From Alphaproteobacteria bacterium (GTDB lineage Bacteria > Pseudomonadota > Alphaproteobacteria > Micropepsales > Micropepsaceae): a stretch of DNA of 44,917 nt. Both the position numbers and the translations under genes were made by a program. The notes below the pieces were generated by a model. It was not told the DNA's origin, made no database searches, and saw nothing but the letters and a program-made list of their open reading frames with translations. The DNA lies in contig JAFAVP010000007.1 in NCBI GenBank assembly GCA_019242395.1, positions 1 through 44,917 on the forward strand. Reading direction: 5' to 3'. Numbering within the stretch: the stretch's first letter is position 1; every line of letters starts with the position of its first letter. Below are positions 18,165 to 21,771 of this stretch, piece after piece.

Positions 18165-20225
18165 TTAGTGAATGGTCGTGCCGGAGAGCACATCCTTCAC
18201 CTTTGCGGCGAGCTGTTTGAGTCCGAAGGGTTTTGGCAGGAAGTGCAGGTCTTCAGGCTTTTCATCATTGCGGCGGAAAGCTTCCTCTGCATAACCCGAC
18301 ATAAAGATAACCTGCAGGTCGGGCCTGATCTGCCTCACGGCGCGCACGAGGGTTGGACCGTCCATCGCCGGCATCACAACGTCGGTGATGAGCAGCTGGA
18401 TGTCGTCCTTGCGGGCCTGCATGATGTCCAGCGCCTGCTCGCCTCCCGCGGCCTCCAGCACCTGATAGCCGCGCTGTTTGAGCGCGCGGGCGGCAAAACT
18501 TCGTACGGCATCTTCGTCTTCCACGAGCAGAATGGTTTCGTGTCCGGTGATATCGCGCGCGGGCACGCTTTCCGCGCGGGAATCCGGTTCTCCATGGCTG
18601 CGGGGCAAATAGATGCTGAACGTCGTGCCTTTGCCGACCTCGCTGTTGACGCCGATGAAGCCGCCCGTCTGCTTCACGATGCCGTAGACCGTCGCGAGCC
18701 CAAGACCGGTCCCCTCGCCAACCGGTTTTGTGGTGAAGAAGGGATCGAAGATCTTGCCAATGTACTGGCTGGGGATACCCGAACCGGTATCCGAAACATC
18801 CAGCCGCACGTAATCGCCGGGCGGCATGTGGGCGCTGCCAACGGTCGCGTCCTGATCAACATGCTCGTTGCAGGTGCGGATAGTGATGCACCCATCGCCG
18901 GCCATTGCGTCGCGGGCGTTCACGACAAGGTTGATGATCGCGTTGTTGATCTGCGCTTCGTCCGCATGCACAGCCCATAGGCCGGCGCCGTGTTCGATTT
19001 TGAGCGCGATGCCTTCGCGCAGCAAACGCCTCAACAGTTCGCCGAGTTCGGTGATTGTGACGCTCAGATCCAGCACCCGGGGCTGCAACGTCTGCTGCCG
19101 GGAAAAAGCAAGCAGCTGCCGCACCAGGTTCGCGGCCCTAACGGCATTCTGGTGGATATCGTTGATTTCGCGGAAGGATGGATCGCCTGCCTGATGCCGC
19201 ATCAGCAGGAATTCAGAATTGCCGATGATGACCGTGAGCAGATTGTTGAAATCGTGCGCCACGCCGCCGGCGAGTTGGCCAACGGCCTGCATCTTCTGCG
19301 ACTGCGCAAACTTCGTCTCCAGCGCTTTTTGCTCAGAGATATCGATCAGGTAGACGGCCCGAAAATCGCCGCCAGCCCGGCTGGCATAAAGCTCCGCCAT
19401 CGCGTCCTGCCGGCCTAGCGCCCGGATCTCCATTTGCGAGGCCGAACCGCACGTAGCCCCGAGAAGTGTCTCCCGGAGCGACCGGCGGTCCGCCGGTTCG
19501 ATCAAATCGGCAAGGGCCTGCCCAGCGAGAGAACCGGAAGCCTTGAAGAAGGCAGCAAAGGCCTTGTTGTGGGTAGCAATGCGTCCATCGGTCTTTACCG
19601 TAGCAACACCGATCGGCGCCTCGTCGAGCGCCTGAACCGGCAGGCCGTCCCCGGCCGCGGCACCTTTTCGCAGCGCCTGATCCCGCGGGAGGACCGGAGC
19701 GAACCACCACACCGACTCGCCCCGCTTGAGGGGCCGCACCGAGACCGCCACTTCGACCCCGGCGGATAACTCGACCGTCTCCTCGTGCGCCTGACCCGCC
19801 GCGGCGCTCCGGGCAAGACGGTAAAGCATTCCGGCCGCTGCTTCGCCTGGGAGCGCCAGTTCCGGCTGTGGTGGCGCGTCGCCTGCCTTTACACCGGCGA
19901 TCCGGCGATAAGCTTCGTTACAATCGACAATCGCACCTTGCGCATTCGTGATGGCCCAGCCGAGATGGCTTCGAGCAGCGGCTTCCGAAATGCGCCAGGC
20001 GCTCACAGACATCTGCTGCCGAGGCCAGAGCGCCACCAGGAATAGGGAACCTACAACGGCAATCCCCAGGAGGAGAGTGAACCCAGGCCAACCAGCTTCC
20101 GCCGGCGCCCCAACGGCCACAAGACCTGCGCAACAGGCCAAGGCGGCGAACGCTGCCGTCGCCCAGCGCCAGGGATCTTGCGCGATATTTGAAGGTGGCA
20201 TGCGGAGACTGGCTTCCATCCCCAC
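18165..20225 (-). CDS. cckA: Hybrid sensor histidine kinase CckA
   Basis: Cell-cycle kinase that phosphorylates CtrA through ChpT in alphaproteobacteria. 686 residues: two N-terminal TM helices (about 22-40 and 48-68), PAS-like regions (about 80-180 and 195-300), HisKA with His324 in GGVAHDFNNLL, an HATPase domain (NLVVNARDAM; DTGSGIPSQYIGKIFDPFFTTK) and a C-terminal receiver with phospho-acceptor Asp615 (ITDVVMPAMDG). The FAQSQKMQAVGQLAGGVAHD stretch and the domain order match CckA. The start is GTG at 20225 or ATG at 20219. Two GANTC sites lie just upstream. Confidence 0.9.
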   Translation of the reverse strand: MGMEASLRMPPSNIAQDPWRWATAAFAALACCAGLVAVGAPAEAGWPGFTLLLGIAVVGSLFLVALWPRQQMSVSAWRISEAAARSHLGWAITNAQGAIVDCNEAYRRIAGVKAGDAPPQPELALPGEAAAGMLYRLARSAAAGQAHEETVELSAGVEVAVSVRPLKRGESVWWFAPVLPRDQALRKGAAAGDGLPVQALDEAPIGVATVKTDGRIATHNKAFAAFFKASGSLAGQALADLIEPADRRSLRETLLGATCGSASQMEIRALGRQDAMAELYASRAGGDFRAVYLIDISEQKALETKFAQSQKMQAVGQLAGGVAHDFNNLLTVIIGNSEFLLMRHQAGDPSFREINDIHQNAVRAANLVRQLLAFSRQQTLQPRVLDLSVTITELGELLRRLLREGIALKIEHGAGLWAVHADEAQINNAIINLVVNARDAMAGDGCITIRTCNEHVDQDATVGSAHMPPGDYVRLDVSDTGSGIPSQYIGKIFDPFFTTKPVGEGTGLGLATVYGIVKQTGGFIGVNSEVGKGTTFSIYLPRSHGEPDSRAESVPARDITGHETILLVEDEDAVRSFAARALKQRGYQVLEAAGGEQALDIMQARKDDIQLLITDVVMPAMDGPTLVRAVRQIRPDLQVIFMSGYAEEAFRRNDEKPEDLHFLPKPFGLKQLAAKVKDVLSGTTIH

Positions 20226-20372: not shown

Positions 20373-21248
20373 TCACTCCGCGGCGAGTTTGAGGCGGGCG
20401 CGGTTGAACGGCTTGTCGCCCAAAATTGTCACCCGGTGCATCAGGCGCTTGTGCGGCTGATAATCGTCCACGGTGTAATGTTGCGTCACGCGATTATCCC
20501 AGAAGGCCAATGTGTTCGGTTTCCATCGCCAGCGGATGACAAATTCCGGCCGCTGAATGTGCTCCGACAATAGCTCCAAAATTTTCGCACTCTCTGCCTT
20601 GGTGAGGCCCAGAATGCGGGTTGTGAAGCCGGAGTTCACAAAGAGTCCTTCGCGGCCGGTTTCGGGGTGTGTTCGCACCAGCGGATGGACCACCGGGGGA
20701 TATTCCCGCCGTGCCCAGGTGTAGCGCTCGATCCCCACGTTCATGGCGGTCAGATGGTCCGGCGGGAAAGACCGGGTGAAATCGTGCTCCGCATCCAGAG
20801 GTTGCAAGAAAGCGCGCAGGCTGGGGGACAGTGCAGCATGGGCCGCGCGCATGCTGGACCACAGCGTGTCTCCACCCTCCTGCGGAACATGGCGCGCATA
20901 CAGCATCGACCCCATCGGCGGCGTCTCAATAAAGGTGACATCCGCCCGCCAGGCGCCTGTATCGGTATCGCTGGCTGGCTGGTTGTCGAGTACCAGCACC
21001 TCGGGGAGCCCTGGTACGCTGGGGCGGATAGGGTGCAAGTGCAGTGGGCCGAACTGCGCGGCGAACTCTTTCTGCTGCTGCGGGGTGATGTCCTGATCTT
21101 CGAAAAAGAGCACCTCGTGCGTCAGGAGCGCCTGCCGGATCTCGGCAATGCCCTCGGCGCTGACCGGCTCGCCGAGATTTATCCCGGAAACCCGCGCCCC
21201 CAAGGTGGGCGACAAAGGGATGATCTGGAGCGGTGGGGCTGCAGGCAT
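20373..21248 (-). CDS. TauD/TfdA family dioxygenase with altered iron-binding triad
   Basis: 291 residues starting MPAAPPLQIIPLSP, the usual TauD-like N-terminus. The family uses Fe(II) and 2-oxoglutarate to oxidise sulfonates, alkylsulfates and similar compounds. The overall match is strong (GARVSGINL, VLFFEDQDITPQQQKEFAAQFGPLHLHP, MHRVTILGDKPFNR). However, the first iron-ligand motif, normally WHTD, reads WRAD: Arg101 replaces His while Asp103 and the distal His271 remain. It may be inactive or use another chemistry. No sulfonate transporter is nearby. It is divergent from the inhibitor-like gene. Confidence 0.85.
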   Translation of the reverse strand: MPAAPPLQIIPLSPTLGARVSGINLGEPVSAEGIAEIRQALLTHEVLFFEDQDITPQQQKEFAAQFGPLHLHPIRPSVPGLPEVLVLDNQPASDTDTGAWRADVTFIETPPMGSMLYARHVPQEGGDTLWSSMRAAHAALSPSLRAFLQPLDAEHDFTRSFPPDHLTAMNVGIERYTWARREYPPVVHPLVRTHPETGREGLFVNSGFTTRILGLTKAESAKILELLSEHIQRPEFVIRWRWKPNTLAFWDNRVTQHYTVDDYQPHKRLMHRVTILGDKPFNRARLKLAAE

Positions 21249-21429: not shown

Positions 21430-21771
21430 ATGGGCAGATTCTATTCCATAGCTGTTGGAGCGGCGGTCGCTCTGGTTTCGATCAGCCTAGCCCATGCAGA
21501 CCCCGTCACGGGGGCCTGGAAGCTTAGCGTCGGGGTCAATGACGACCCCTGTGTTGTTACGCTGGCGGCGGATCAGGGCAGTGACAGCGCGGGATCCGCA
21601 CGCGCGACGGGCGATTGCAACGGCGTCAGCTTCGAGCACTGGAGGTCCGTCGGCGACCGGCTGCAGTTGCAGCAGGCAAACGGCGCCCTTGTAGCCTTCC
21701 TCCACGCCAAGGAGGGCGGCTTCGAGGGCAAACGAGTCTCCGACGGAAAGCTGGTCGCGCTGAACCGCTGA
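21430..21771 (+). CDS. Secreted AprI/Inh-type metalloprotease-inhibitor-like protein
   Basis: 113 residues. A signal peptide (MGRFYSIAVGAAVALVSISLAHA) precedes a small beta-barrel-like domain: VTGAWKL, a Cys in CVVTL, a second Cys in GDCNG, then W (EHWRSVGDRLQLQQANG), LVAFL and a C-terminal strand. This is the pattern of the Inh/AprI/Omp19 fold, which binds secreted zinc proteases. No target protease is adjacent, so the inhibitory role is inferred. Good Shine-Dalgarno AAGGAG; a strong terminator follows the stop. Confidence 0.72.
   Translation: MGRFYSIAVGAAVALVSISLAHADPVTGAWKLSVGVNDDPCVVTLAADQGSDSAGSARATGDCNGVSFEHWRSVGDRLQLQQANGALVAFLHAKEGGFEGKRVSDGKLVALNR

Follow-up and report, generated by a model that had tools for sequence, protein, structure and literature searches.

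Fe/2-oxoglutarate (2OG) oxygenases are considered a superfamily defined by one iron site, the 2-His-1-carboxylate triad. A TauD-like gene in the window (the whole stretch of DNA analysed, 44,917 nucleotides) raises the question of what such a protein does when the first histidine of this triad is an arginine.

Family assignment and the iron site

The minus-strand ORF at 20373-21248 starts with ATG at 21248, encodes 291 amino acids and is open throughout. Its product, hereafter the WR protein, scored 374 bits against NF007104, the NCBIfam equivalog model of taurine dioxygenase (curated cut-off 313), and 235 bits against PF02668, and displays 48-54% identity to TauD from E. coli (1OS7/1GY9) and P. 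putida (3PVJ). An AlphaFold2 model (pLDDT 80, pTM 0.82) is predicted to adopt the TauD double-stranded beta-helix fold. Its best Foldseek and VIA matches are TauD crystal structures, VIA superposing it on the E. coli and P. putida enzymes with Z 35.6-36.8 and rmsd 1.6-1.8 Å over 272-276 residues; for the E. coli structures the values are Z 36 and 1.6-1.7 Å. The protein is thus a member of the TauD family by sequence and fold, as its first description as a TauD-like dioxygenase had it, and its gene is the sole PF02668 gene of the window genome, which is 99.6% complete.

Alignment to the E. coli and P. putida enzymes placed Arg101 of the translated motif G-A-W-R-A-D-V-T-F at iron ligand His99, Asp103 at Asp101 and His257 at His255, in agreement with the initial reading of WHTD changed to WRAD at Arg101 and Asp103. 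The gene and the residues of its iron and 2OG sites are as follows.

20373..21248, minus strand: WRxD TauD-subfamily gene (profile scores, alignment, TauD crystal structures as best Foldseek/VIA matches)
20946..20948, minus strand: Arg101, codon CGG, aligned with iron ligand His99 of E. coli TauD (alignment; codons)
20940..20942, minus strand: Asp103, kept iron ligand (E. coli D101; 8/8 of the WR clade, 51/51 canonical)
20478..20480, minus strand: His257, codon CAT, kept distal (axial) iron ligand (E. coli H255; 8/8 of the clade)
20865..20867, minus strand: Thr128, 2OG site (E. coli T126; 8/8 of the clade)
20445..20447, minus strand: Arg268, 2OG-binding arginine (E. coli R266; 8/8 of the clade)
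20433..20435, minus strand: Arg272, 2OG/sulfonate arginine (E. coli R270; 8/8 of the clade)

The His-x-Asp...His triad is incomplete in all eight members of the clade described below: the first ligand position is arginine in 8/8, with the aspartate and the distal histidine kept, and histidine in 51/51 canonical relatives (arginine in 0/51). The distal ligand had been assigned to His271, which aligns with the variable E. coli residue H269; the true counterpart, His257, is intact. The 2OG-binding region was correctly predicted to be intact, Thr126, Arg266 and Arg270 (E. coli numbering) each being present in 8/8. In window numbering, D103, H257, T128, R268, R272, H72, D96 and F208 are all invariant in the clade, compared with 44% of columns overall (hypergeometric P = 0.0013; the eight residues were preselected as functional, so that the value gauges retention and not discovery). 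When a substitute ligand was sought in the clade alignment, no His or Cys was found to be gained; the conserved His72 is shared with canonical TauD, where its counterpart holds the substrate sulfonate (PMC9304159). The sole clade-fixed new acid, Glu45 (window 21116-21114; Gln/Lys in canonical proteins), is distant from the motif in sequence.

The confidence of the model is low at the motif (block means 49-52; residues 102-105 below 50), and the motif block of the canonical paralogue L036 from genome G008, modelled with the same alignment, also has a low mean of 53. Because this canonical control is equally low, the low confidence is not diagnostic of the WR change; with the motif poorly predicted in both proteins, the direction of Arg101 is not given by the model.

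Distribution, descent and selection of the WR clade

A tblastn survey of fetched relatives, covering 69 species, revealed eight species with W-R-[A/S]-D. These all belong to this one genus, probably Rhizomicrobium (Micropepsales), and pattern searches confirmed the same eight. Homologues therefore do not uniformly carry histidine at this position. In a maximum-likelihood tree of 62 sequences, computed with the trait columns removed, the WR members were monophyletic (support 96/98) and a single H-to-R change was found, with identities among the members down to 58%. Outside the genus, exact-pattern scans, which diverged members could escape, found W-R-x-D in none of 96 genomes of the order and in none of 385 evenly drawn class genomes or 398 phylum genomes. 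An extra match in G477 (W-R-S-D-I-C-F) was judged to be chance. No relative was found in the viral contigs searched, and a plasmid search returned relatives only at <60% identity. Judged by these sequences, the WR subfamily appears to be of single origin and genus-restricted, with the first (equatorial) histidine replaced by a fixed arginine. The clade bears out the original suggestion that the protein might define a subfamily, and it is very probable that this subfamily is functional.

The codons of Arg101 are synonymous across the clade (CGG or CGC), and dN/dS between the window gene and its two closest genomes is 0.05-0.06; in measurable WR pairs it is at most 0.38, comparable to canonical TauDs. 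The synonymous codons and the dN/dS of ~0.05 indicate that the gene is under purifying selection. Errors in sequencing or assembly, or decay of the gene copy, can therefore be dismissed as having next to no likelihood: the window assembly is fragmented (295 contigs), but the same arginine occurs in eight independent assemblies, with synonymous codon differences and low dN/dS. A read error had been considered unlikely on the ground that two base changes are needed, which is true of CGG but not of CGC, the codon of 6/8 members and one base step from CAC; what truly argues against error is the existence of the clade, not the base-change count.

A canonical WHTD TauD is encoded alongside the WR gene in 5/8 species, and no second TauD was found in the window species or in G027. 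Most canonical TauDs of the genus group with Phenylobacterium/Caulobacteraceae in the tree, apart from the WR clade, which suggests an old duplication or transfer. One TauD relative, L022 (G007, contig 56), was matched as two overlapping pieces in different frames, suggestive of a frameshifted copy.

Substrate pocket and genomic neighbourhood

In E. coli TauD, His70 and Arg270 grip the sulfonate of taurine, Asp94, Asn95 and Ser158 form the amine network, and Tyr73 lines the pocket (PMC9304159). Two positions of this pocket deserve attention in the WR protein.

21033..21035, minus strand: His72, kept sulfonate-binding residue (E. coli His70; 8/8 of the clade; role from PMC9304159)
21024..21026, minus strand: Arg75, clade-fixed replacement of taurine-pocket Tyr73 (Arg in 8/8, Tyr in 51/51)

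Comparison with the 51 canonical proteins revealed the clade-fixed changes Tyr73 to Arg, Asp96 to Gly, His99 to Arg, Ala257 to Thr, Ile14 to Leu and Ala220 to Lys (E. coli numbering), and Thr100 to Ala/Ser also sets the clade apart. Y73R, D96G and T100A/S, which accompany H99R, lie in or beside the taurine pocket. The lysine is Lys222 of the window protein (20585-20583), where canonical proteins have Ala. Among the taurine-pocket residues His70, Tyr73, Asp94, Asn95, Ser158, Phe159, Phe206 and Arg270, three are altered and the rest kept: besides Tyr73, the taurine-amine contact Asn95 is Ser/Thr in 7/8 members and Phe159 is Tyr in 4/8. Since Tyr73 to Arg and Asp96 to Gly are clade-fixed too, the iron ligand and the substrate pocket changed together. 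The sulfonate end (His72/Arg272) is kept and the amine end altered, with Arg75 adding a positive charge. Because neither the iron triad nor the taurine pocket is intact, the WR protein should not be named taurine dioxygenase; curated models confidently give such proteins that label despite the absent catalytic ligand.

The window gene is surrounded by genes for a histidine kinase, an Inh-type protein and a methylmalonate-semialdehyde dehydrogenase, the first two of which help to place the locus.

18165..20225, minus strand: PAS histidine kinase with receiver domain (the L090 homologue borders a flagellar block next to canonical tauD)
21430..21771, plus strand: Inh-family (PF02974) small protein, divergent neighbour and landmark of the genus's ancestral tauD locus (tauD has similar neighbours in L084 and L090)

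The gene order is histidine kinase, flagellar block, canonical tauD and Inh in G033; flagellar block, WR tauD and Inh in G008; and histidine kinase, WR tauD and Inh in the window, with flagellar genes absent. These orders show that the locus is old and that the WR gene occupies the ancestral tauD position of the genus. The absence from the window of the block that separates histidine kinase and tauD in G033 suggests an apparent loss of flagella in the lineage; G000, G027 and G041 all lack fliR.

G030 and G033 both carry the WR gene in divergent orientation to a Porin_O_P gene, after which come genes for sulfate transport and one of the TauE sulfite exporter family. The transport genes of G033 encode a sulfate-binding protein, CysT, CysW and an ATP-binding protein. 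For G030 the identities of the binding protein and of CysW were confirmed, and the TauE-type genes were assigned by similarity only. The two genomes are closely related, and this sulfate-cluster context counts as one event. No sulfur genes lie beside the WR gene in the window, nor did a search of the window genome turn up any strong alkanesulfonate-binding protein.

Possible functions and comparison with known systems

We slightly favour a neofunctionalised, active Fe/2OG enzyme with a 1-His-1-Asp site (probability about 0.45) over a metal-free pseudoenzyme. The WR protein would still bind 2OG, and probably Fe(II) through Asp103, His257 and bidentate 2OG, with a metal affinity that is probably weaker. 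Arg101 would be redirected to the substrate and, together with Arg75, reshape the pocket. Instead of taurine, the substrate may be another organosulfur acid, such as one in which a second negative charge replaces the amine, and the reaction a hydroxylation next to sulfur with release of sulfite or sulfate in sulfur scavenging. In favour of this reading, the remaining ligands and the 2OG residues are fixed, whereas drift would be anticipated in a dead site, the sole copy is under selection, and two sister species provide a sulfur context. Counting against it, that context is a single event, the window gene has no sulfur neighbours, and the genome yielded no strong alkanesulfonate-binding protein.

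If the protein is instead a metal-free pseudoenzyme, the guanidinium of Arg101 may replace Fe(II) and bridge Asp103 to 2OG or another dicarboxylate or sulfonate, and the protein, performing no oxygen chemistry, would be a binding or regulatory partner that senses, for instance, 2OG or a sulfonate. We regard this as a serious contender, if a somewhat less probable one. All members (8/8) have a cation where an iron ligand is required, and none has gained a substitute His or Cys; an arginine side chain, when extended, should by general side-chain geometry span the distance to the metal position, where it would exclude iron, which counts against an iron-binding enzyme. In the five species that keep a canonical WHTD TauD, the paralogue could cover catalysis; however, the window species and G027 have no other TauD that we could find, and neither Asp103 nor His257 varies, even between members that share only 58% identity. 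TauD and phytanoyl-CoA hydroxylase are also partly tolerant of changes in the triad: TauD H255Q keeps 81% and H255E 33%, and imidazole rescues phytanoyl-CoA hydroxylase that has lost one iron histidine, whereas prolyl 4-hydroxylase is intolerant (PMC2767507). The tolerance of the first two enzymes counts for the active 1-His-1-Asp enzyme.

An enzyme that fills its open equatorial iron site with an exogenous ligand, either water or an anion held by Arg101 (the sulfonate or carboxylate of the substrate, or chloride), could alter the reaction outcome, by analogy with halogenases that recruit chloride on loss of the aspartate. The fixed residue is an arginine and not merely small or neutral, the pocket gains a second positive charge from Arg75, and loss of the aspartate in SyrB2 creates a chloride site (PMC2767507). 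Unlike the halogenases, however, the WR protein keeps its aspartate, and the genes recognised next to its own include none for halogenation or secondary metabolism; we consider such an enzyme quite improbable. The broader proposal of a catalytically active natural Fe/2OG oxygenase working on one His and one Asp, in which the arginine would position either an anionic substrate or an exogenous ligand, we judge unlikely, though not to that degree.

The WR protein resembles TauD in its fold, its aspartate and distal histidine ligands, its 2OG residues, the sulfonate-binding His70 and Arg270, and Asp94 and Phe206, and differs from it in His99 to Arg, Tyr73 to Arg, Asp96 to Gly, Thr100 to Ala/Ser and Ala257 to Thr, with Asn95 mostly Ser/Thr. 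Like the 2-His halogenases SyrB2 and CytC3, it is a natural Fe/2OG-family protein lacking one residue of the facial triad, but these enzymes lose the carboxylate and keep both histidines (PMC2767507). The halogenase pattern (Asp/Glu to Ala/Gly with both His kept) is therefore absent from the WR protein, in which Asp103 is kept and the first histidine lost. AspH, the aspartate/asparagine beta-hydroxylase, belongs to a different subfamily; only the acid of its triad is missing and two histidines are kept, whereas the WR protein lacks the first histidine. What AspH has in common with the WR protein is a deviation from the customary iron triad, as reported for this Fe/2OG oxygenase (PMC13168262). 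In the open-access papers searched we found no natural family member with arginine at the first histidine, which is weak evidence of absence. The natural exceptions in the literature searched lose the acid and not the first histidine, and the WR triad variant thus differs from those found there, the 2-His halogenases and AspH. As a selected clade within TauD, the best-studied member family, with everything else kept, it allows a clean decision on whether a single His and a single Asp are enough or a cation can stand in for the metal.
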